DNA of 32,910 bases, taken from contig CAMDPX010000062.1 in NCBI GenBank assembly GCA_945905295.1, positions 1-32,910 on the forward strand, written 5' to 3'. How positions within the stretch are numbered: the stretch's first letter is position 1; the number at the start of each line of letters is the position of its first letter. Below are positions 13,614 through 27,552 of this stretch, piece by piece. Under the pieces are notes generated by a model. That model worked only from the letters and a program-made list of their open reading frames with translations. It ran no database searches and was not told the origin of the DNA. This stretch comes from Planctomyces sp. SH-PL62 (GTDB lineage Bacteria; Planctomycetota; Planctomycetia; Planctomycetales; Planctomycetaceae). Both the position numbers and the translations under genes were made by a program.

Positions 13614-16600
13614 TTAAGCCAGAGGGTCGGGCGGCTTCTTCTTGGTGGCGCGCTTGCGGGGCGTGAGTTGCAGCCACGAGTCGAGTTGTTTGCTGACGTC
13701 ATCCATGCTGACGATGCGCGGGGTGACGTTGAACTCGGCTTCGGCGGGGGAGTTGGCGGACGACGGGAAGTTGAGTCGCAGGACTTCCTTTTCGAGGTTC
13801 TGCATCCAGGCGGGGAGTTCGATGCCGGAGCCGGTGCTGTCGGCGAGATAGGCGTCGATCTCGCGGCGCAGGCTGTCAAAGGACGGCGACTCAGCGCGTT
13901 GGGCTTGAGCGTCGGCGACGACTTGCGGCAGGTGCGCGAGCATTCGATTTACAGCGAGCGGCTTCGTGAAGTGTTCGTTGAGGCGATCGCTGACAGCGGG
14001 CAATCTCATGCCGTATTTGCGTTCGGCGGCGTTCAAGCGGCGGAGGTGGCCAGCGGCGGATTCGCGGGCGCGCTTCTCGAAACTGCGTTCCCAGGCGGCG
14101 ACGGCCTCTTGCAGGTTTCCATGACAGAGGACTTGGTGGACTAGATTCAGCGGCGTGAAGTTCCAAGCGTCGCGGTCGTAATCTGCTTCGACGCGCAGGA
14201 AGTCGAGTAGGAAGAAAAACTTCTCGCCGTAGTCGGACTGAGTCGTGGTCGTGTTGTATTCCAGGAAGCGATCAAACTTGTCGACGACGGTCATATAGAT
14301 CAGTTCGAGCACATGCACGACGTGATCGGTTTCGATCGCGCCGCTATCGAGCGCCTCCAGCAGCGGGCTGGGACGCAACGGATCTTGGGACTCGGCGAGG
14401 AAATTCAAGAACCACGGAATGCCGTTATGCAGGATTGCTCGCACGTTGCCGAGCGTCAGCATCTTGGCGTGAAACAGTTCGGCTCCAAACTTGGTGATGA
14501 ACTCGCGGACTTCGTCCCAGACGGCGTCCCGTTTCATACTCTCGACGGCCGAGAGCCGCATTGTCGCACTGTGGCTCACCCATTCCTCGACGAAGGGTTT
14601 CATCAGGCTGTGCAGCAGTTCGACAAGTTTTTCTTGCGGAAACGTGCCCTCGTCCCAGGTCGCGGCCGAACGGAGCAATGCTTCGGCGGAGGACCGCACA
14701 GCCGTGCGAAACAGGCGGTCGAATTCGGTGACGGCCATCTCGCCGGGACGCGACGATTTCTCCATGCGATGCGCGGTTCGCAGCAGATGCCACGTCTCTT
14801 TGAGCAATCCGAATCGCGGAAGTTGCGTGAGCAGAAAGCGGATGTCCGATTGCAGCAGCCTCGCGGCGAGTACTTGCTTGGGATGCCCGCCGACATCGAG
14901 CGGCACATACAAGAGCGGCTTGCGGGCGAGCATCGTCAGCAGACTGGGGAGCGTCGCTTTGACCTCGTCCACGTCGCCACGCAGGACCGCTCGGTACAGC
15001 GCGGTCATGTGCAGGTCGTCGTTCGCGGCCTTGGATTTTTTACGAGTGTCACCGCCGGGCAGGAAACAGCCGAGACCACGCTCACCAATCCGACACGCGA
15101 GTTGCGCGGCGATCACCGTCTGCACCATGTAGAGCTTCGTCTGCAATTGCAGGTCGTATTCGACGTTCGAGTCGTGCTCGCCCGACGGAGTGGCGATCTC
15201 GAAATCCCATAACGCTCCCATCAGCTTGCGGAGTCCATGCTGCATCTCGCCGAGATGTTTGACCCAACCGCTGATCACCGCTTGCGGGTCTTCGAGATCG
15301 GGCCGCCGAGCTTCCTTTGGATTGCGTTGCAGACCGGCGGGTGGATTGCGCATCAAGCATGCGACCGCCATTTGCCACAACTGCGCCAGCGTGACCGAGA
15401 ACTTCAGCCGCGGTTCGAGCGCCTTGCTGAGAAACTCCATTTCGGTCGAGCCAGGGGCAGCGCCGTCGTCCATCAGTTCGCCGGAAACGCCGTCGTCGGC
15501 ACTGTCTTTGAACGAGACATCTTCATACGCATTGCGGAACGGATTGTCTTCGTCATCCTCGTCGTCCGGGTCGAGCAGTCCGCCGTCATCGTCATCGAAG
15601 TCGCCGAGATCATCGTCCAGCGATTCCTGTTTCGGCTTCTTCTTTTTCTTGGGCCGATCATCGGCCAGACCGTCGAGCACGGGGACTTCCCAGAACTCGC
15701 CAGCGTTGACTTCGAGGTAGGAGAAGAACCGTCGGATCAGCGGCCAACGATCAGGCTGCGGCGAGCCGTCGGTCGGCTCCGCGGTGACTTGCGTCATCCA
15801 TTCGGTCAGCAGCGCGGGAAGCGAGTATGAGCCGGACTCGATGCCGACCTCTTCGTTCTGACTCAGCCACTGCATCAACAGCGCCATCGCCGCGACATAG
15901 TCTTCCTTCTCGAGCAACGCTTTCACCACGAGCGCATACGACTTCGCAGTCGTGAACCGGTCGATGTGCCGCCGCCAGAAGCTGACGTCACCGGCCGCTT
16001 CACCCGCCGCTCGCCATTCGGAGAGAACGTCGGCAACGTGCGTGGCCGATTCCCAACTTTCGCGACCCGCGACGTGCGGCATGTCTTCGACGGTGACGCT
16101 CGCGAATTGATCCCAATACTCGGCAAACGTGCGGAAGCATTCGGACAACCGGCGTGTGAGTTCACGATCCCCCTGCGCGGCCGATTCGCCCAAGGCTCGC
16201 GAATAGACCGAAAGGTACTGCTCGACGATCGACAGCAATTCTTCGAGTCGCTGATCGGGGATGCTGTCCTCACGCGACGAGAACAACGGAAACAGACCTT
16301 GAAAGCCGAGAATGTTCCAAGGATCGGGGAACGCTCCGCATTCGATGCCCCGTTTGAAGTAGTCTTCGATTTCCGCGATCAGTGACACTGCCGGCAGAAG
16401 CTGGCCGGAACTGAGATGCCGATGCGCGGCGGTCATCCGCCAATGCACTTCGCAGGCGAAGCGTGCGGCGACCGATGGGATCACGGCAGCAGTCTCTCTC
16501 GCGGCCTGTGGCCGACCGAGCATCGCGTACAAGCCCGCGAGATGCCGGTACTGAATTTGTCTCGCCCCATAATTCGCGAGATACAGATTGAGCGACTGTC

Positions 16601-17750
16601 GCACATGCCCGAACGGCTGTTGCGTTTTCTTGGCCGCAGCTTTCAGACGTTGACCGCGTTCGCCTTTCGCATCGTCCAGCAGGCGTTCGTAGAAGGCGTC
16701 GCGTTGCCGAGCGACCCGCGGCAGCAGCGACGTCAGCGTGATCGTCGAGTCGTGCGTATCCGGCCCCGATCCGCTGATCGCCGAGGCCATCAGCATCGTG
16801 CCGCACAGCACCGAGGCCGCGTCGAACAGCGATTCCTCCGGCGGTTGCTCGGTTTGCTCGGCCATCCAATTCAGCAGCGAATCGAGAATGATCTTCCGCA
16901 AAATGAACCGGCGGAAGTTCCCCTTGTTGTCGATGACGTGCGGATCCCATTCGCCGAACATGTAGTTCGTGCGTTTGTAAACCGGATGATTGTGATCGTG
17001 AGCACGCACGTCGCAGGCGATCTCCTCCAAATTCCGCAGATCAAAGAACGCGTTCTGCAACAGGTTCGCCGGCACCCCCTGCATCAACTCCATCGTCTTC
17101 GTGATGAGTTCTTGATACGGACCGCGCCCCGCCCCGACTCCTTGAAAATAGATCGGCACCGGCCGGAAGCGTTCCTTCGGATACGGCTCCATCTTGCGTT
17201 CGTTTTCCAGAATCGCCACCGGCCGAAAGCCAATGAAGTCGTTGAGTGAATCGAGTGCTCCGCTGACGACCCGCTCGGTCTCCTCCCAGGGGGAACCTTG
17301 AGCGAGCACTGCCTCAAACAACCGCGCAAGAAACAACGGCTGCTGGAAGTCGGCGTCGCTGAGATGAAACAGCAGGTCGCCATGATGCTGCCGATACGCC
17401 GGCCAGAGATCATGAAACGTGAGCTTGAGAACCGCTCGCGCCTGTGCCGAATCCTTGAACGCCGCCGAAGTCGTTTCGAGTTCGCCGAGCCGTGCGAGCA
17501 GCGCCGCCTCAAACGAACCCCACGGATTCGGCCAACCCCACTCCGGATGGCAGCGATTCAAGCGATCCTGGAATTTCACATCCGGTTTGCCGCCAGAGAA
17601 ATTCAGATAACCCAGAATGTCCTGAAACCCGCTGACCAGCGCGGCGGTCGGGACATCTTTCGGGACACTAGGAGCGAGAGCGTTCGGCAAACTCTCCGGT
17701 TCAGGCGGAGTTGACTCGGCGGCATCCCCGGTTGGCTGGCTTCCCGACAT
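13614..17750 (-). CDS. Giant conserved-looking hypothetical protein, 1378 residues
   Basis: Not recognised. The frame opens at 17777, but the ATG at 17750 (MSGSQPTGDAAESTPPEPES) has a better upstream ggggat site and was chosen. A disordered N-terminus leads to a tryptophan/proline-rich block (HPEWGWPNPWGSFEAALLAR) and FRPVPIYFQGVGAGRGPYQE. A long, almost wholly helical body follows, which looks like a solenoid of helical repeats (for example RQIQYRHLAGLYAMLGRPQA). At residues 700-765 a lysine run (KKKKKPK) leads into a very acidic linker with DDDLGDFDDDD and DPDDEDDEDN. A second helical half (about 780-1340) ends in a basic tail (RKRATKKKPPDPLA). No signal peptide, membrane helix or catalytic motif was found. 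The monocistronic layout gives no functional hint; a scaffold role is only a guess. Confidence 0.85.
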   Translation of the reverse strand: MSGSQPTGDAAESTPPEPESLPNALAPSVPKDVPTAALVSGFQDILGYLNFSGGKPDVKFQDRLNRCHPEWGWPNPWGSFEAALLARLGELETTSAAFKDSAQARAVLKLTFHDLWPAYRQHHGDLLFHLSDADFQQPLFLARLFEAVLAQGSPWEETERVVSGALDSLNDFIGFRPVAILENERKMEPYPKERFRPVPIYFQGVGAGRGPYQELITKTMELMQGVPANLLQNAFFDLRNLEEIACDVRAHDHNHPVYKRTNYMFGEWDPHVIDNKGNFRRFILRKIILDSLLNWMAEQTEQPPEESLFDAASVLCGTMLMASAISGSGPDTHDSTITLTSLLPRVARQRDAFYERLLDDAKGERGQRLKAAAKKTQQPFGHVRQSLNLYLANYGARQIQYRHLAGLYAMLGRPQAARETAAVIPSVAARFACEVHWRMTAAHRHLSSGQLLPAVSLIAEIEDYFKRGIECGAFPDPWNILGFQGLFPLFSSREDSIPDQRLEELLSIVEQYLSVYSRALGESAAQGDRELTRRLSECFRTFAEYWDQFASVTVEDMPHVAGRESWESATHVADVLSEWRAAGEAAGDVSFWRRHIDRFTTAKSYALVVKALLEKEDYVAAMALLMQWLSQNEEVGIESGSYSLPALLTEWMTQVTAEPTDGSPQPDRWPLIRRFFSYLEVNAGEFWEVPVLDGLADDRPKKKKKPKQESLDDDLGDFDDDDGGLLDPDDEDDEDNPFRNAYEDVSFKDSADDGVSGELMDDGAAPGSTEMEFLSKALEPRLKFSVTLAQLWQMAVACLMRNPPAGLQRNPKEARRPDLEDPQAVISGWVKHLGEMQHGLRKLMGALWDFEIATPSGEHDSNVEYDLQLQTKLYMVQTVIAAQLACRIGERGLGCFLPGGDTRKKSKAANDDLHMTALYRAVLRGDVDEVKATLPSLLTMLARKPLLYVPLDVGGHPKQVLAARLLQSDIRFLLTQLPRFGLLKETWHLLRTAHRMEKSSRPGEMAVTEFDRLFRTAVRSSAEALLRSAATWDEGTFPQEKLVELLHSLMKPFVEEWVSHSATMRLSAVESMKRDAVWDEVREFITKFGAELFHAKMLTLGNVRAILHNGIPWFLNFLAESQDPLRPSPLLEALDSGAIETDHVVHVLELIYMTVVDKFDRFLEYNTTTTQSDYGEKFFFLLDFLRVEADYDRDAWNFTPLNLVHQVLCHGNLQEAVAAWERSFEKRARESAAGHLRRLNAAERKYGMRLPAVSDRLNEHFTKPLAVNRMLAHLPQVVADAQAQRAESPSFDSLRREIDAYLADSTGSGIELPAWMQNLEKEVLRLNFPSSANSPAEAEFNVTPRIVSMDDVSKQLDSWLQLTPRKRATKKKPPDPLA

Positions 17751-17943
17751 AAACGATGCGATCCCCGGCAGGCACAAAGAAACTATTCGGGCGGCAGTTT
17801 CGCGAACGGTCGAAGGGTTGGGAAGGATCGCGACTTGGTACGTCGAACGACTCTGAAAAGATCGTGCTTGGGACAGACTTTGGCGGTTGTTAGAATGCTC
17901 GCGTTTCAGAGGTATGGCAATTCAAACTCTCAAGGAATCGCGA

Positions 17944-20576: not shown

Positions 20577-20743
20577 CACAAGGGTGTCAAAAGTCGCGTG
20601 ACGATATCCCTGCCCACTCGCGCTTGCCAGCGACTGCGCGGGACTCCGGGCTTCGGCCGAACCGGCCGGAGGAAGCTGACTTCCGAGCAAGGCCCGGATT
20701 GAGTTCAACCGTTTGCGAGTCTGCGCCGATGTTAGGGGTCGTA

Positions 20744-20841
20744 GCGCTTGTAGTGACCGCATTCATGCGGTCGATCGGCCCAAACAGCCGGTCGAGATGC
20801 CTGGCGTGCATCGGCCGGATGAATCCGGCCACTACGAGCGC
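20744..20841. repeat. 32-bp two-arm inverted repeat with covarying stems, TTCA-loop family
   Basis: Arm 1 (20744-20775) and arm 2 (20810-20841) pair over 32 positions with five differences. Each arm has its own hairpin with loop ttca: gaccgca/tgcggtc in arm 1, ggccgga/tccggcc in arm 2 when reversed. The differing bases are partners in the small hairpin, so pairing is kept in both arms. Confidence 0.9.
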
Positions 20842-20970
20842 ATGAAGGGGAACCATGACGCAGGCGATCGCAGCCTTGTCGTCGACGGAGGACGATGCAC
20901 TTCGCCATCGCTGGGTGAAGGTGTCGAAATCGGTGGGTCTCCCGTGGGTTCACGAACACGACGGAGCACC

Positions 20971-23037
20971 ATGAGTCGCCGACACAGAAACAACACCGCC
21001 AAGGTGTCGCTGTTTCCGTTTCTCGACGTGCTGGTCTGCACGATGGGATCGCTGATCTTGTTGTTGTTGGTCGCGACCAGTCGCATCAGAGCGGCTGCCG
21101 TGGACAAGGCCAAGCAGGCGGCCGTTATGGCGAGCGTAAAGCGCGTTGAACCGCCCGCAGCCGAGCCGGCAACGATGATTCCCACGGAACCGGAGCCAGA
21201 AGACGATCCCACTCCCGAATGGCAAACGCGCGTCGAACAACTCACGGAAGAACGGGACTCGCTGCGGAGTCGGCTCTCTCCGCTGAAGAATCAATTGGCG
21301 ACGGCTCAATCGGCTGTGATGCGAACCAAAGTCAAAACGGCCTCGACCGAAGATCGGCTCAAAGAGATCCGCGCCCAGCAACAGGCGGCAGCAGCCGAGC
21401 AGCAGCGATTGCAAGACGAAATTGATTCGATGCAAAGTGACCTGACGGACGCGGAACTGCGGCTCGCGAAAGCCCAGGAACGACAGCAGACCGCGAAAAG
21501 CAAATTCGCGTTCCTGCCGTTTGACGGTCGCACTGGGACGACCAAGCGGCCGATCCTCATCGAATGCACTCAGGACCACATCCGCTTCTTGCCCGAAGAC
21601 GTCCGGCTGACTCCCACCGACCTCAATGGGTTCACGTCCGGATTTAATCCCTTGCTGATCGCGTCTCGCGAACTCGTCCACTATTGGAAAGCCTACGAAC
21701 GAGTTCACTCCGGAGATGCCGATGCCAACAAAGATGCGGATGCCTTCGAGACCGACTTAGCCGCGCTCAACGATAAAGAGCGCGAGCCGTATGTGTTGTT
21801 GCTGGTTCGGCCGAACGGGGCGGTCGCGTTTCACATCGCCAAGGGATTCCTGACGCAGCTCAAGGTGCCGCACGGCTACGAACTGATTACCGACGATATG
21901 GAAATCGATTCATCCAATCCCGATCCCGAAGCCAAACAAATCTGCCAAACCGCCGTCACGCAAGTCTTATCTGAACGAGACAAACTGACGCTGGCACTGA
22001 CCCGCAATCGCGATCAGCAGCGCGATCAACTTCAGCTCGATCCCGACTCGCGAACGTTTGTGCCGAAAGAAATTGACGACTCGGCGACTGGATTCAATCG
22101 TCCGAAATCCGGCGCGTCGTCCAAGCTATCCGCAGCCAATGGATCAACATCCGGCTCACAATCCAGAACGGCCGGGACTGGCTTTCAATCCAATGGACCT
22201 GCGGCTGGCTCGCAATCCAATGGACTAACCTCTTCACCGCCAGATGGGTTCTCGAAGGGCCAGGGGACAGCGAATGGTTCCAACTCCGCGGGTGAACCTG
22301 GGACGGGCGCTTTCCCACGCACCGGGGGGCTGACGCCCCCCGCTCGCCAGCAACGCGGTGGGGAACAACAAGTCGCGCAGACTGGTCGCTCGCAACTTGA
22401 CGAGGAACCTTCCGAAGAGCCATTGCCGCAATCGAATGGACGGCGTTACGAGAACGACGACTCGAAGCCGTTTCCTTTCAATGGCGAGCGAACAAAGCCA
22501 GCGTCCTCCAAGAACGGTGCTCCCGGAGCGAATGCGAGCAAGCCCAACGCGATGCGGACCAATTCAAAACCGAGCAACGATCCTCGTGCTGCCAACAACT
22601 CGACAAACGGGGCGGCGGGCAGCAGCAACCTTGCACGCATGAAGCGGCGATACTTGATGCCTCGATCCGGCATCGGACTCGAAAAAACGATTGCGATTCG
22701 CATTTCGTCGAAGCGTGTGATGATCGGTGGCGAGTACGAAATTCCCGTCGAAGCCGGCGTGAAGACCGAAAGCCTGATCGACCGCGTCTTGATGGCGATG
22801 GACCGCGTGCAGTCCGGTTGGCCGAGCGCCGGCGAAGGATATCACTGGGTGCCGACGATCAAGTACGAAGTTGTCCCCGGCGGCGAGCAGACTCATCAGC
22901 GATTGAACTCCGCGCTCTTCGACCTCGGACTCCAGTCGAACGTTGAATACCTCGATTCTGACCCTGATGCACCGAATCCGTTGCGCGAGGCTTCCCGCTC
23001 TCGCGCGACGACGCCCACCGGCGGAGGTGCGCGATGA
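20971..23037 (+). CDS. Large ExbD/MotB-like single-pass protein (B subunit 1)
   Basis: A 688-residue protein. The start at 20971 (MSRRHRNNTAKVSLFPFLDV) follows a ggag site; the upstream in-frame extension crosses a repeat and was rejected. One membrane helix covers residues 15-36 (VLVCTMGSLILLLLVATSR) and carries Asp19 in an FPFLDV context, matching the ion-channel Asp of ExbD/TolR (PFIDV). A coiled coil follows (about 85-170). A globular domain spans about 175-360 (RPILIECTQDHIRFLPEDV; PYVLLLVRPNGAVAF). A low-complexity SN/G/Q-rich linker covers about 375-560, and a C-terminal domain about 565-670 (MKRRYLMPRSGIGLEKTIAI). The N-in, C-out topology would put the domains in the periplasm. It overlaps the next gene by 4 nt (ATGA). 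The channel Asp call is inference from motif position; no peptidoglycan-binding OmpA domain was recognised. Confidence 0.8.
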   Translation: MSRRHRNNTAKVSLFPFLDVLVCTMGSLILLLLVATSRIRAAAVDKAKQAAVMASVKRVEPPAAEPATMIPTEPEPEDDPTPEWQTRVEQLTEERDSLRSRLSPLKNQLATAQSAVMRTKVKTASTEDRLKEIRAQQQAAAAEQQRLQDEIDSMQSDLTDAELRLAKAQERQQTAKSKFAFLPFDGRTGTTKRPILIECTQDHIRFLPEDVRLTPTDLNGFTSGFNPLLIASRELVHYWKAYERVHSGDADANKDADAFETDLAALNDKEREPYVLLLVRPNGAVAFHIAKGFLTQLKVPHGYELITDDMEIDSSNPDPEAKQICQTAVTQVLSERDKLTLALTRNRDQQRDQLQLDPDSRTFVPKEIDDSATGFNRPKSGASSKLSAANGSTSGSQSRTAGTGFQSNGPAAGSQSNGLTSSPPDGFSKGQGTANGSNSAGEPGTGAFPRTGGLTPPARQQRGGEQQVAQTGRSQLDEEPSEEPLPQSNGRRYENDDSKPFPFNGERTKPASSKNGAPGANASKPNAMRTNSKPSNDPRAANNSTNGAAGSSNLARMKRRYLMPRSGIGLEKTIAIRISSKRVMIGGEYEIPVEAGVKTESLIDRVLMAMDRVQSGWPSAGEGYHWVPTIKYEVVPGGEQTHQRLNSALFDLGLQSNVEYLDSDPDAPNPLREASRSRATTPTGGGAR
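22319..22348. repeat. GGGGGGC-TGAC-GCCCCCC hairpin repeat in frame inside the first ExbD-like gene
   Basis: A perfect 7-bp GC stem with a 4-nt loop, encoding RTGGLTPPARQ within the disordered linker. The reverse complement matches the element at 32861-32890 along its whole length apart from two bases of the stem and a 1-nt length change. Confidence 0.85.
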
Positions 23038-24089
23038 GCCGCCGGGATTTTCGTGAAGAAATGGAATTTGGCTCCGACTCGTTTCTCGATGTCGTCGCCA
23101 ATGTCGTCGGCATTCTGATCATCTTGATGGTGCTGGCCGGCATTCGAGCCAAGACCGCGCCGGTCAACCTTTCCGAAGAGGCACCGGAAGCGACGCCGGT
23201 TGCAACGACACCGCCAATCTTGATCGCGGCAGAACCTGTGGACGACGAAGCGAAAGCCGCTCGCCAGCGCGAACTGGCCGCGCTGCAATCGCAGTCCGAT
23301 TCGTTGCAGCAAGAGCTCGAACGCCTGCACCAAGCGGCTCAGGAAAATGAAACCAAGCTGACGGAACTGCAATCGCAGGACGCCGTGCAGCGGAATCGTT
23401 TCACGGCACTGAAGTCGAACCTCGAAGGAGAGGCCGCCGCGTTGCGGGACAATCAGCAAGAGACCGACGTTTTGGAGGCCGCCGTCCACGCCGTGCGAAT
23501 GCGGTTGAAGAAGCGGAAGGCGGAAGTCGCCGCTGCTGAGAAACAGCCGAACCGCGTCGAGAAACTGGAACATCGCATCACGCCGGTCAGCCGAGTTATC
23601 AGCGAGAACGAAACCGAACTGCACTTCCGCTGTCAGAGCAGTGTCGTCACGACCGTGCCCATCGAGGAATTGGTCGATCGCATGAAAGCCCAAATGGAGC
23701 GGCAGCGCGAGGTCATCCTGCGACTGAAGAAATACTCTGGCTCCGTCGGCCCGGTGCGCGGCTGGAATCTCAACTACGTCATTGAGACGCAGCAGCTTCT
23801 CGGCATGGTCAAAGCCAGCGTATCGCAGTTTGAACTCTTGCCCGAACCCGACCTGACGGGCGAACGCAGTGAAGTCGCGTTACGACCTGACTCCGCATTC
23901 CGCAATGAACTCCGCAAAGCCGAGCCGGGCAGCACGATCACGTTTTGGGTCTATCCCGACAGCTTCGTCTTGTTCCGCAAACTTCAAGCTCTCGCGCATC
24001 GCGAAGGCTTCACCGTCGCCGCTCGCCCGCTGCCCGAAGGGACACCCATTATGGGTTCGCCCAACGGCAGCCGTTCCGCAGCCCAATAA
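23034..24089 (+). CDS. ExbD/TolR-like single-pass protein (B subunit 2)
   Basis: A 351-residue protein, starting at an ATG that overlaps the previous stop codon (ATGA) with a strong ggaggt site. It also begins MSRR and has one membrane helix (VVANVVGILIILMVLAGI, residues 20-37), with Asp19 preceded by SFL (DSFLDV), the same position as in the upstream protein. A coiled coil covers about 75-175, and a C-terminal globular domain about 195-345 (ETELHFRCQSSVVTTVPIEE; GSTITFWVYPDSFVLFRKLQ; HREGFTVAARPLPEG). That domain resembles the middle domain of the upstream protein in strand order and in the pattern x(R/W)VYP..FVLFRK..AL, so the two look like diverged paralogues. Together with the channel protein downstream it probably forms an ion-driven complex in the cytoplasmic membrane. 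Confidence 0.8.
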   Translation: MSRRDFREEMEFGSDSFLDVVANVVGILIILMVLAGIRAKTAPVNLSEEAPEATPVATTPPILIAAEPVDDEAKAARQRELAALQSQSDSLQQELERLHQAAQENETKLTELQSQDAVQRNRFTALKSNLEGEAAALRDNQQETDVLEAAVHAVRMRLKKRKAEVAAAEKQPNRVEKLEHRITPVSRVISENETELHFRCQSSVVTTVPIEELVDRMKAQMERQREVILRLKKYSGSVGPVRGWNLNYVIETQQLLGMVKASVSQFELLPEPDLTGERSEVALRPDSAFRNELRKAEPGSTITFWVYPDSFVLFRKLQALAHREGFTVAARPLPEGTPIMGSPNGSRSAAQ

Positions 24090-24173
24090 CGTAGGTCAGC
24101 CTTTCCAGGCTGACCTCTGAAACCATCGACCGTCAATTGAGCGTTCGGGGCAGGCTGGAAAGCCTGACCTACG
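24090..24173. repeat. Two-arm inverted repeat with TTCC loops
   Basis: Arm 1 (24090-24114) and arm 2 (24151-24173) pair over 23 bp. Each arm forms its own hairpin with loop ttcc. The stems read cagcct/aggctg in arm 1 and caggct/agcctg in reversed arm 2, a compensated C-G to G-C swap. The element fills the gap between the stop codon of B subunit 2 and the ribosome binding site of the channel gene. Confidence 0.92.
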
Positions 24174-24192
24174 AAAAAAGAAGGACCACCGC

Positions 24193-25467
24193 ATGTCGCC
24201 ACAATCGCCAACCACTCGTCGTCACGGGATGGATTTTTCTTTCATGCTGGGAGTCGCCGCGACGGCCGGCTTCTATGCGATGGTCTTCTTCACGCCGCTG
24301 CGTAACACGATGCTTTATACCTACACGACGGAGCACGCCGTCGAGTACGTCATCGTCGCGCTCTTCTGCTGGGGCCTGATGGATGTGCTGATGAAGGTCA
24401 TCGCCTTTCCGAAAGAGAGCCTCGCACTGCGGCAAGAGTGGCTGCCTCAACGAAACGGCCGCGAGCCAATCGAGAACGCGCAGGCCATGCTGGATCGAGT
24501 CCGTTCGCAGCCGCAATGGATGCAAGACACGAAGGTCGCCAAGCGTCTGGTCGCCGCGTTGAGCTTCGTGACCGAGAAGGGGACGGCCGACGATTATCGC
24601 GAGCATGTGCAATACCTCGCCGATCTCGATGACGAGAACTCGCACGCCAGTTACGGCTTGATTCGCTTCGTGGCTGGCGTATCGCCGGTGCTGGGCTTCC
24701 TGGGGACCGTGATTCACTTCGGCACGGCTCTGAGCGGCATCTCGTTCGACGACTTGGTCGAACGTCTGCCGGGCGTCGTCAGCGAGATGGGTTCCGCATT
24801 CAACACGACAACGTGTGCCCTCGCGGCGGCGATGACGATGATGTTCGCGCTGTTCGTCTGCGAGCGGATCGAACGGGGCATCGTCCACGCGATTGACCGC
24901 CTGATCGAACGCGAGTTGCTCAACCGCTTCGAGATCAAAGACCCCAGCATTCTGCCGTTCCTGTCGGTCGTTCAGTCCGCGAATCAAGAGGCGTTGGCCT
25001 CGATCGGAGCAACGCTTAAAGGCCAAATCGAAATCTGGGGCCGCACGCTCGACGCGCTCTTCCAACGCTTCGATCAACGCCAGCAGCACGAACTGCAATC
25101 CTGGCAAGCCGCGCTCGACGTGTTGCAGCAGCGGCACGAAGCCTACGACAACAATCTCGAAGAGCGGCTGCATCAGTCGCTGGTCATGGTCGATGACAAA
25201 CAAGAACAACACCTGTCGTTCATCCACACCGCCGTTGCGAAAGCGGTCGACGTGCGCAACGACTTCGCGGGATTGGCCAGGTCGTTGGAAACGATCGCTC
25301 GCGGCGAAGGCAAGCTGGCCGAGACTCAAGCCGTCTTGTCCGACAACCTCCGAGTGATTCGCGAGACTCAGCAGATCGACGAAGCCTTGCACGGCCTCAC
25401 CGCTGCGATCCACTTGCTCACGACCCGCCACAGCGTCCCGGGAACACGCGGGGCGGCCGCAGCCTGA
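24193..25467 (+). CDS. MotA/TolQ/ExbB-like proton-channel protein (A subunit) with a long coiled-coil tail
   Basis: A 424-residue protein. The ATG follows an aagga site. Four membrane helices are visible: about 17-37 (FMLGVAATAGFYAMVFF), 48-70 (VEYVIVALFCWGLMDVLMK), 155-180 (VAGVSPVLGFLGTVIHFGTA) and 200-228 (TTTCALAAAMTMMFALFVC). The third and fourth match the MotA_ExbB family core, including the Gly-rich LGFLGTVIHF and AFNTTTCALAAA segments. From about 250 onward a cytoplasmic coiled coil runs for roughly 150 residues (ERLHQSLVMVDDKQEQHLSF), longer than in ExbB/TolQ and recalling ZorA-like tails. It is expected to form the pentameric ion channel with the two upstream ExbD/MotB-like proteins. 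Next gene: a double-FHA protein 122 nt away. Confidence 0.88.
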   Translation: MSPQSPTTRRHGMDFSFMLGVAATAGFYAMVFFTPLRNTMLYTYTTEHAVEYVIVALFCWGLMDVLMKVIAFPKESLALRQEWLPQRNGREPIENAQAMLDRVRSQPQWMQDTKVAKRLVAALSFVTEKGTADDYREHVQYLADLDDENSHASYGLIRFVAGVSPVLGFLGTVIHFGTALSGISFDDLVERLPGVVSEMGSAFNTTTCALAAAMTMMFALFVCERIERGIVHAIDRLIERELLNRFEIKDPSILPFLSVVQSANQEALASIGATLKGQIEIWGRTLDALFQRFDQRQQHELQSWQAALDVLQQRHEAYDNNLEERLHQSLVMVDDKQEQHLSFIHTAVAKAVDVRNDFAGLARSLETIARGEGKLAETQAVLSDNLRVIRETQQIDEALHGLTAAIHLLTTRHSVPGTRGAAAA

Positions 25468-25483
25468 CGCCGGACGCTGTTCC

Positions 25484-25535
25484 GTAGCCGCACTCGCCAG
25501 AGTGCGGGCCACCCGCGTTCTGGCGAACGCGGCTA
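25484..25535. repeat. Two adjacent hairpins with CGCCAG loops
   Basis: Arm 1 (25484-25506) and arm 2 (25513-25535) are inverted copies. Each forms a 6-bp hairpin with loop cgccag: cgcact/agtgcg in arm 1, cgcgtt/aacgcg in reversed arm 2. Two stem pairs differ, and both are compensated. The element lies between the channel gene and the FHA gene and overlaps an in-frame but unlikely GTG extension of the latter. Confidence 0.88.
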
Positions 25536-25588
25536 CGACCCCGTTAGACTCGCGCGGCGAAAACGTTCCTCTCGTCTTGGCACACGCG

Positions 25589-26560
25589 ATGTTTGGGCAT
25601 CTCGTCCCCTGCTCTGGGGGCAAATCGATTGATCTGGCACGGACCAATGTCTATCTGGGCCGACGGCCTGACGCGGATCGAGATGCCCCGTTGAACGCGC
25701 AGACGGCCCTGTGTCGGTTGCGATTCGTCGATGGCTGGTGGCACGTCGATGACTTGCTGGGACGTGGCGATGTCCGCGTCAATCACGAACGTGTCCAGTC
25801 ATGCCGTTTGAATCGGCTGGATGAATTGGCGATCGGCCGAGCACGCTTTCGCATCGACTACATTCCGCCAGAAGACTTCTCCGTTCTGAGCGAGACGCTG
25901 GAAGAGATCGCGGAGTCGGTCTTGTCCAGCCAAAGTAATTTGGGCCTCTTGAAAAGTTCTCAGCCTGCGAGTGCGCCCCCACCCGTGAGCCTCGCTGCGG
26001 TGCGTCCGGCAAGAACGCCTCCGAGTCCACGATCACCTCCCGCTGTGCCATCGACCACAGGCATGTCCACGACGACGGACCTGTTGATTGTTGCCCCATC
26101 GCTGCCGAGTGAATTGTTAGGGCGTTTGATACCGCTTGGCGGTGGAGCCGACTATCCGCTGATGAAGCCGACAATCCTGGTGGGTCGGCAACCACCGTGT
26201 GACATTATTTTGCGTGTGGCAACGGTCTCGTCGAAGCACTGCACGCTGGAACTGACCGAGGGTTATTGGCAAGTGAAGGATCTCGGCAGCCGCAACGGAG
26301 TCCGGGTCGACAGCGTGCGCTGCGATCAAGCGTGGATATTTCCCGAAAGCCGACTGTCGATTGCCGACCAACGCTTCCGGCTCGATTACACGCCTGAAGG
26401 ATTACCGCCCGTGCCGAATCCCGCGCAGCGACCATCGCTGATGGCCCAGGCGGGACTCGTGGGCGAGGAACTCGAACGCATGATGACCAGGCCTGCTGGG
26501 CCGGGAACTCAGGACCGAGACTCGGAACGGAAGCGGTTTGAATTGTTGGAAGAGGGATGA
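25589..26560 (+). CDS. Double FHA-domain protein
   Basis: A 323-residue cytoplasmic protein. The frame extends to a GTG at 25502, but that runs through a repeat, so the ATG at 25589 (MFGHLVPCSGGKSIDLARTN) was chosen. An N-terminal FHA-like domain (residues 1-95) keeps LGRRPDADRD and a C-terminal strand RFRIDYIP but lacks the Ser and His of the SxxH motif, so it is probably degenerate. A linker of about 80 residues is rich in P and S. A canonical FHA domain follows (about 180-270): ILVGRQPPCDIILR, SSKHCTLELTEGYWQVKDLG and GSRNGVRVDSVRCD, expected to bind phosphothreonine. The tail is helical and charged. Its position next to an ion-channel gene suggests phospho-dependent control of that complex; a kinase was not found in the window. 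Confidence 0.9.
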   Translation: MFGHLVPCSGGKSIDLARTNVYLGRRPDADRDAPLNAQTALCRLRFVDGWWHVDDLLGRGDVRVNHERVQSCRLNRLDELAIGRARFRIDYIPPEDFSVLSETLEEIAESVLSSQSNLGLLKSSQPASAPPPVSLAAVRPARTPPSPRSPPAVPSTTGMSTTTDLLIVAPSLPSELLGRLIPLGGGADYPLMKPTILVGRQPPCDIILRVATVSSKHCTLELTEGYWQVKDLGSRNGVRVDSVRCDQAWIFPESRLSIADQRFRLDYTPEGLPPVPNPAQRPSLMAQAGLVGEELERMMTRPAGPGTQDRDSERKRFELLEEG

Positions 26561-26562
26561 TG

Positions 26563-26619
26563 CAGGTTGGGACTCCGTCCCGACCCGAAACGAAAAGAGT
26601 CGGGACAGAGTCCCAACCT
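26563..26619. repeat. Two-arm inverted repeat, same family as 4957-5016
   Basis: Arm 1 (26563-26584) and arm 2 (26599-26619) pair over 21 bp with one mismatch across 14 nt. Each arm also contains a short gggac/gtccc stem. Its relative at 4994-5014 shows a compensated A-T to T-A swap. It separates the FHA stop codon from the GTG start of the response regulator gene. Confidence 0.92.
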
Positions 26620-26640
26620 ACGCAACTGCGGAGACAAATC

Positions 26641-27552
26641 GTGGCCAACATACTTGTCGTCGATGATTCGGCGGTCGATCGAATGCTCGCGGGACGGCTG
26701 TTGCAGCAGGACTCTCGTTTCCAGGTCAGCTTTGCCGAGAATGGTCTCGAAGCGTTAGCCAAAATTCGCACGCGCGCGCCCGATATCATCGTCTGCGACT
26801 TGCAGATGCCGGAGATGAACGGCCTCGAATTAGTCGAAGCCGTGCGAGAAGAGTTCCCGTCGATCCCCGTCGTGCTGATGACGAACCGAGGCAGCGAAGA
26901 AATCGCCGCCGAAGCTCTGCGCCGCGGAGCCGCCAGCTACGTTCCCAAGGTGCGGCTGGCGGATCATCTCTGCGACACGGTTGGCCGAATCCTCAAAGCC
27001 GCCCACGCCGACCGCATGCACTCGCGACTGATGCACTCGCTGGAACAATGCGACTCCCGCTTCCGACTGCGGAACGATCCCGAACTGATCGAACCGTTGG
27101 TCAGCCATATCCAGGAAATGTTGTGTTGCGTGCCGCTCGGTGACGAGGGGGTACGTCTGCGCGTGGGAGTCGCCGTCAAGCACGCGCTGTGGATCGCGCA
27201 TCACCACGGCAACTTGGAAATCCCGTTGAGCGGCATACAAACCGACGACGACGTCCAAACGCTTGCCGCCGAGCGGCGCAATCAAGCCCCGTACTGCTCG
27301 CGCAGCCTGACCCTGAGCATCCATATTTCCACGACCGAGACGATCTTCAAAATCGGCCACGACGGCCCCGGAATCGACGTCTCGCAATTACCTCCGCAGC
27401 TTGAGACCGCCGCCGTCGATCGCTCCTGGCTGCGAGGCTTCGTGCTGATCCCCTCCGTGATGGACGACCTCCGCTACGACGACCACGGCCGCACGCTCTG
27501 CCTGCTCCACAAAGCCGCAGTCAACGACGAGGCCGAGTTGGAATGGGAATGA
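26641..27552 (+). CDS. Response regulator fused to an RsbW-like ATPase fold
   Basis: A 303-residue protein. The frame begins at 26557, overlapping the FHA stop, but that part is the repeat at 26563-26619. The GTG at 26641 has a ggag site and starts directly at the receiver domain (VANILVVDDSAVDRML), so it was chosen. The receiver keeps Asp8/Asp9, the phosphoacceptor Asp53 (VCDLQMPEMNGLE), a Thr in VVLMTNRG and Lys near 102. The C-terminal half (about 140-303) resembles anti-sigma-factor/RsbW HATPase domains: a helix ending HHHGNLEI, a DGPGID box and RGFVLIPSVMDDLRYDD. In the N-box the usual Asn is Ile185 and the usual Glu is His181, so ATP binding or kinase activity may be lost. Last gene of the channel cluster. 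Confidence 0.88.
   Translation: MANILVVDDSAVDRMLAGRLLQQDSRFQVSFAENGLEALAKIRTRAPDIIVCDLQMPEMNGLELVEAVREEFPSIPVVLMTNRGSEEIAAEALRRGAASYVPKVRLADHLCDTVGRILKAAHADRMHSRLMHSLEQCDSRFRLRNDPELIEPLVSHIQEMLCCVPLGDEGVRLRVGVAVKHALWIAHHHGNLEIPLSGIQTDDDVQTLAAERRNQAPYCSRSLTLSIHISTTETIFKIGHDGPGIDVSQLPPQLETAAVDRSWLRGFVLIPSVMDDLRYDDHGRTLCLLHKAAVNDEAELEWE

Follow-up and report, generated by a model that had tools for sequence, protein, structure and literature searches.

Among the closest described systems is the AglR-AglQ-AglS gliding motor of Myxococcus xanthus, in which two different genes of the TolR/ExbD type accompany a single MotA/TolQ-like gene (PMC3169522), and for which it is stated as unknown whether AglQ and AglS form a heterodimer or homodimers (PMC9389320). 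One ring gene is also accompanied by two ExbD genes in ExbB-ExbD1-ExbD2 loci, and heterologous B pairs beside a TolQ-like gene are known from further loci, planctomycetes included. The MotAB stator has four hydrophobic segments in its A subunit and an Asp in the axle transmembrane (TM) segment near the N terminus, and in ZorAB of the Zorya system the ring protein is MotA-like and carries a long tail on the cytoplasmic side. For each turn, the canonical 5:2 motor consumes ten protons (PMC9389320).

We analysed a 32,910-nucleotide stretch of DNA from Planctomyces sp. SH-PL62 (contig CAMDPX010000062.1; hereafter the window), which carries one gene of the ring type (A) and two different genes of the axle type (B1 and B2). 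All five open reading frames (ORFs) listed by a sequence-only reading of this DNA are present at their coordinates, and both B1 and B2 have the MSRR start, the single TM helix and the F17-L18-D19-V20 motif that it described. The features are as follows:

13614..17777, minus strand: P6, a conserved protein of 1387 aa, not counted as a motor part
20855..20974, plus strand: vestige of an old A gene, 39 codons (MTQAIAALSS...); the intact old A of locus L066 begins MTQATTASS
20971..23037, plus strand: B1, ExbD/MotB-like predicted axle subunit, TM 16-56 including Asp19
21025..21027, plus strand: B1 codon 19, GAC (Asp) in the sequence, Ala in most orthologues
23034..24089, plus strand: B2, ExbD/MotB-like predicted axle subunit, TM 15-40 including Asp19
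23088..23090, plus strand: B2 codon 19, GAT (Asp), present in all intact modules read
24090..24173, plus strand: dispersed inverted repeat separating B2 from A
24193..25467, plus strand: A, ring subunit of the MotA/ExbB/TolQ family (PF01618), 'AFNTT' type, with a C-terminal coiled-coil tail
25502..26560, plus strand: double-FHA protein (FHA over cut-off), neighbour only
26557..27552, plus strand: response regulator with a weak HATPase_c_2 match, neighbour only

The starts of B1 and B2 are fixed by homologues; the two genes overlap by 4 bases (ATGA), and the stop of the old-A vestige overlaps the B1 start (20855..20974 vs 20971). The left arm of the inverted repeat between B2 and A, GTAGGTCAGCCTTTCCAGGCTGAC, has 264 copies in the genome at ≤2 mismatches, as a REP-like dispersed element. 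Two other inverted repeats (palindromes at 25483-25537 and 26564-26619) cover the starts of the FHA and response-regulator ORFs, so the first codons of these ORFs are probably too far upstream and not real starts; the true FHA start probably lies downstream of the 25483-25537 repeat and that of the response regulator near 26641 (GTG, ANILVVDDS). The FHA and regulator domains proposed for these two proteins were recovered, and the RsbW-like part of the regulator fell below the HATPase_c_2 cut-off (19.1 vs 27.4 bits).

The assignment of A to the MotA/TolQ/ExbB family, made earlier from the sequence, holds: A matches MotA_ExbB PF01618 with an E-value of 2.6e-9 (37.3 bits vs a curated cut-off of 22.9), it has four hydrophobic segments, and the GFLGTV and (N/D)TT motifs by which membership among PF01618 ring proteins was judged are invariant in the ring-protein alignment (A4). 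Residue 204 of the window A is Asn (AFNTT), and is Asp in an older type of ring (AFDTT). The AFDTT type was found in 88 genomes, using a strict pattern, and the AFNTT type in 26. The AFNTT rings fall into a single clade (100/100 support), which indicates one origin and adjoins the rings of another family of the class. At the same position, two ExbBs of the window's own genome have a hydrophobic residue ahead of TT. Other ring variants were also observed: in G008, an additional MotA-like gene (AFETT) precedes a gene with MSRRGRSGPVISLFAFQDIITS (L116 3-3000), apparently another related motor family, and in the A genes linked to the module in G019 and G139 (L110, L111) both the Thr of TVxG and the DTT are gone (AFAPL/AFVPL). 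G019 has in addition an unlinked AFNTT A, so that its genome encodes ring proteins of two kinds.

In the B1 model, the TM is followed by a coiled coil (81-174), an alpha/beta domain (192-307), a disordered stretch (373-549) and a second alpha/beta domain (552-665); in the B2 model, by a coiled coil of 100 residues (71-170) and a single alpha/beta domain (193-342). The TMs of B1 and B2 are homologous (hhalign probability 95.5, E 1.5e-8), as are the two alpha/beta domains of B1 (hhalign 95.4). Domain 2 of B1 aligns with the periplasmic domain of E. coli ExbD (8p9r; Z 7.6, rmsd 2.6, 69 of 73 residues aligned) and domain 1 with TolR (5by4; Z 7.5, 86 residues aligned); these matches are suggestive rather than conclusive, as common folds also reach Z 7-8. 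For the B2 domain, the best matches (Z 6.3) are RNase H-like folds, and ExbD is absent among the matches listed. Foldseek searches of the PDB with the B1 and B2 models returned nothing significant, and the sequence profiles of both proteins matched mainly coiled coils there. No PF02472 match was listed for B1 or B2, nor among the most-matched families of their alignments (A1/A2); neither protein is among the PF02472 matches of its own genome, and their profiles gave no significant match to the ExbDs of that genome. A single N-terminal TM with an ion-binding Asp, which characterizes an axle protein, is found in B2 in all intact modules read, and in B1 in a minority of genomes only.

We then compared the locus with the described systems. 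It resembles AglRQS in joining A and two different B genes in one locus; however, the Asp is retained in both AglQ and AglS, which also match PF02472, whereas B1 is Asp-less in most species, B1 and B2 are far larger, and the ring has AFDTT or AFNTT. Asp is present in both B proteins in the window, as in AglQ and AglS, and B1 has Ala in ~120 of the 170 family genomes. The likeness to ExbB-ExbD1-ExbD2 loci is found within the same genome, where six of the eight ExbB loci have two ExbD genes (C201, C22, C69, C158, C19, C170); unlike B1 and B2, these ExbDs have no long coiled coils, and both members of the four pairs read with an LDM/IDV-type motif have the Asp. Both ExbDs of C22 carry GDIAFNL in place of the usual TPMLD motif. 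Known loci with heterologous B pairs have vWA/TPR genes, none of which recurs around the module, and the latter differs from MotAB by lacking a flagellar context and an OmpA-like domain in the B models, and by having two B genes. Paired B genes are already known; for a partner that lacks the Asp (an Asp-less ExbD paralogue), or for its co-evolution with the ring, no description was found in a literature search that covered few subscription journals.

To describe the distribution of these genes, A was searched in 99 related genomes, about 50 loci were read and a profile was built per gene. In most of the loci read, the three genes are linked. Neighbourhood clustering placed A, B1 and B2 together in 39 loci outside the genus of the window, usually in the order A-B1-B2, a recurrence beyond chance, and A, B1, B2 and P6 are the only families that recur widely. 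With a threshold of E ≤ 0.001, B2 was detected in 92 of the 99 relatives. Of these matches, 86 lie below 1e-20, and the remaining ~6 are much weaker and possibly represent other paralogues. Among 294 genomes drawn from across the phylum, B2 is essentially confined to the class Planctomycetia, with two weak relatives in another family. One of the two, G414, also carries an A gene, together with a B1-like gene that lacks the Asp (FLS) and a B2-like gene that has it. A-B1-B2 is a conserved three-gene module of the class Planctomycetia. P6 is a highly conserved, single-copy core gene (86 of 99 genomes), often divergently transcribed beside the module, with no match in Pfam, NCBIfam or PADLOC; we rejected it as a sixth component, as it is a core gene also in families without a clear B2 (f3) and is missing in another (f2).

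The contrast between B1 and B2 in the conservation of Asp19 is the interesting part. The sequence-only reading expected this residue to be conserved in homologues of both; this is the case for B2, in every intact module read, and not for B1, in which column 19 is mostly Ala, occasionally Ser or Thr. A pattern search of the 170 family genomes gave 15 with B1-Asp and 123 with B1-Ala, a few of the latter being off-target or chance matches; reading of loci added G099 and the hybrid G052, leading to ~17 B1-Asp genomes and the ~120 B1-Ala genomes given above. Residue 19 of B1 goes along with the type of ring. An AFNTT ring is present in 13 of the 15 B1-Asp genomes that the pattern search had found; in the other two, the linked A of G139 is AFVPL and has lost DTT, and G050 (AFDAT) is a true exception. 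In a table of 67 genomes, the ring Asp is missing in 16 of 17 B1-Asp genomes and kept in 45 of the 50 others (Fisher 3e-10). Dependent models of evolution were preferred to independent ones in Pagel-type tests, both on the B1+B2 tree (LR 34.4, p 6e-7) and on a B2-only tree (LR 27.1, p 2e-5), these trees being built from B1/B2 themselves and some genome states resting on one locus. The B1-Asp label requires seven parsimony changes on a B1 tree computed with the TM left out, at least five of them forced by well-supported branches, and seven also on the B2-only tree: B1-Asp arose about seven times.

The B1 residue was predicted in six genomes ahead of reading. The prediction was correct for G043 (B1-Asp) and G072 (B1-Ala), partly correct for G019, which has B1-Asp with a linked A of a third type, and for G052, which has the Asp by way of a B2-type TM, and wrong for G045 and G059, which combine AFNTT with B1-Ala. 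A strict rule that AFNTT means B1-Asp is broken by G045, G185, G188 and G059; the g35 subset and g32 (AFGTT with B1-Ala) likewise break the rule in this direction, from an Asp-less ring to B1-Asp, and G050 is the exception in the other. Together with the 67-genome table, these outcomes indicate that B1-Asp nearly always accompanies an Asp-less ring, and that an Asp-less ring does not require B1-Asp. The B1 of G052 (L092 6142-10223, minus strand), with both the TM and the coiled coil of B2 type, is a natural domain swap.

How the ring came to change can be followed in part. The genomes with AFNTT rings are scattered on the B1/B2 tree while the rings themselves are one clade, for which horizontal spread is the simplest account; the same discordance disfavours block transfer of the new A together with B1-Asp. 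Within the genus of the window, three arrangements were found. In G002 (L066), whose flanking DNA is 88% identical, the old A precedes a B1-Ala gene and no new A is present; in G009 (L069), old A, B1-Ala and B2 are followed by a new A that is truncated and has four stops; the window has B1-Asp, B2 and the new A, and the first codons of old A survive directly 5' of B1. The same vestige is found in L009 and L011, and the alignment of window positions 20596-20898 with L069 extends into the intact old A of that locus, over about its first 40 bp. The simplest history is that a foreign A was inserted after B2 in this genus and that the window lineage deleted the old A: an ancestor with old A-B1-B2-new A underwent opposite losses, with B1-Asp in the line that retained the new ring.

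The opposite situation, loss of the ring, is seen in family f2. In four loci (L137, L138, L139, L140), B1 and B2 are still adjacent and keep their periplasmic parts (of B1, only the end lies on the L139 contig), but no A was found there, and both B proteins have lost their TM motifs, including the Asp of B2. This joint loss ties both TM motifs to A, and the retention of the periplasmic parts without A shows that these domains have a use of their own; the f2 set is possibly a motor-free version of the system.

We consider it rather probable that the module encodes a membrane motor of the 5:2 type, built from A, B1 and B2 with an obligate B1/B2 heterodimer as axle, and that in several lineages an AFNTT ring replaced the resident one, most of these having gained B1-Asp. 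With a mixed axle in the A ring, three observations would be accounted for: the retention of B1 despite its missing ion site, the covariation of its residue 19 with the ring, and the disappearance of both motifs together with A. Of the sequence-only reading, it is the heterodimer of specialised B subunits that came out as best supported, and not its five-gene, phospho-controlled setting. Two separate homodimeric motors could instead share the ring protein (A with a B1 pair, A with a B2 pair), as is theoretically possible for AglRQ/AglRS and left open in the literature for AglQ/AglS (PMC9389320). This would suit the window, in which both B proteins have Asp19 and each could work alone, but we hold it to be improbable: in the ~120 genomes where B1 is Asp-less, yet kept beside B2, a B1 homodimer would lack an ion site. 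B1 might also be a side-bound force transducer, similar to TolA or TonB, or a plug of a B2-homodimer motor. Its greater length, its ~175-residue disordered linker and its terminal ExbD-like domain give it a transducer-like layout, and its TM is mostly Asp-less; such a role is nevertheless rather unlikely, given that its TM is homologous to that of B2, that it has repeatedly gained an Asp, in step with the ring residue, at precisely the position of the Asp in B2, and that in G052 a B2-type TM was placed on B1.

The FHA and response-regulator genes are adjacent to the module and co-directional in the window, and the same pair follows it in L010, from the same genus, in favour of a five-gene, phospho-controlled motor that includes both proteins. 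Among the loci read, however, they accompany the module only in these two genomes; the pair is absent beside it in L009, L011, L013, L014 and L066, all of the same genus, and elsewhere, and neighbourhood clustering found no recurrent FHA or regulator family. The five-gene unit is therefore very improbable, both proteins are ruled out as motor components by their neighbourhoods, and phospho-control loses its support. (The contigs of L010, L014 and L019 are titled Candidatus Kuenenia stuttgartiensis yet hold a Planctomycetia genus; they are probably misnamed MAGs.) Membership of a Zorya-type anti-phage system is suggested by the long, ZorA-like coiled-coil tail of A, with weak matches to ZorA models over the coiled coil (E 4e-4) and to 8vvi (E 5e-6). 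We rejected it as scarcely credible: when P6 and the five genes were scanned with PADLOC, ZorB, ZorC, ZorD and ZorE were absent among the matches listed, which bears out the earlier remark that ZorC and ZorD are lacking, and the module, with its two B genes, has the class-wide distribution of a core gene set, present in nearly every genome and not patchy.

Returning to the heterodimer motor, we infer that B1 and B2 share one pore in a pentameric ring, with ion flow and rotation. The axle, a single B1 paired with a single B2 inside a ring of A subunits, would be turned by ions flowing past its Asp, and force would reach the periplasm through the coiled coils and the ExbD/TolR-like domains of both B proteins. 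Ancestrally, it is likely that only B2 had the ion-binding Asp and that the ring had an Asp in AFDTT. A horizontally spread AFNTT ring gene would then have displaced the resident one in several lineages, that of the window included, and B1 would have acquired an Asp in most of these, so that the axle there is of the familiar two-Asp kind. A one-Asp axle would take five ions per turn. It is conceivable, if doubtful, that the ancestral planctomycete motor, with a single axle Asp and a ring of aspartates, advanced in 72-degree steps using about five ions per turn instead of ten, and that ring replacement followed by B1-Asp gain converted it to a two-Asp, ten-ion gearing; if true, evolution would have repeatedly altered the gear ratio of a rotary motor. 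As for the cellular role, our best guess, weakly held and based on the near-universal distribution in the class and the long coiled coils, is a near-universal transduction of force in the envelope of these bacteria, like that of Tol or Ton.

Whether the axle of a 5:2 motor can be mixed, and how many ion sites it needs, is the question stated as open for AglQ/AglS. The Planctomycetia apparently offer a class-wide motor in which one half of the axle lacks the ion site, together with natural gains of the site, swaps of the ring and losses of the motor. With the residue pairs that are available to test, the question of the mixed axle would become one of point-mutation experiments in culturable planctomycetes.
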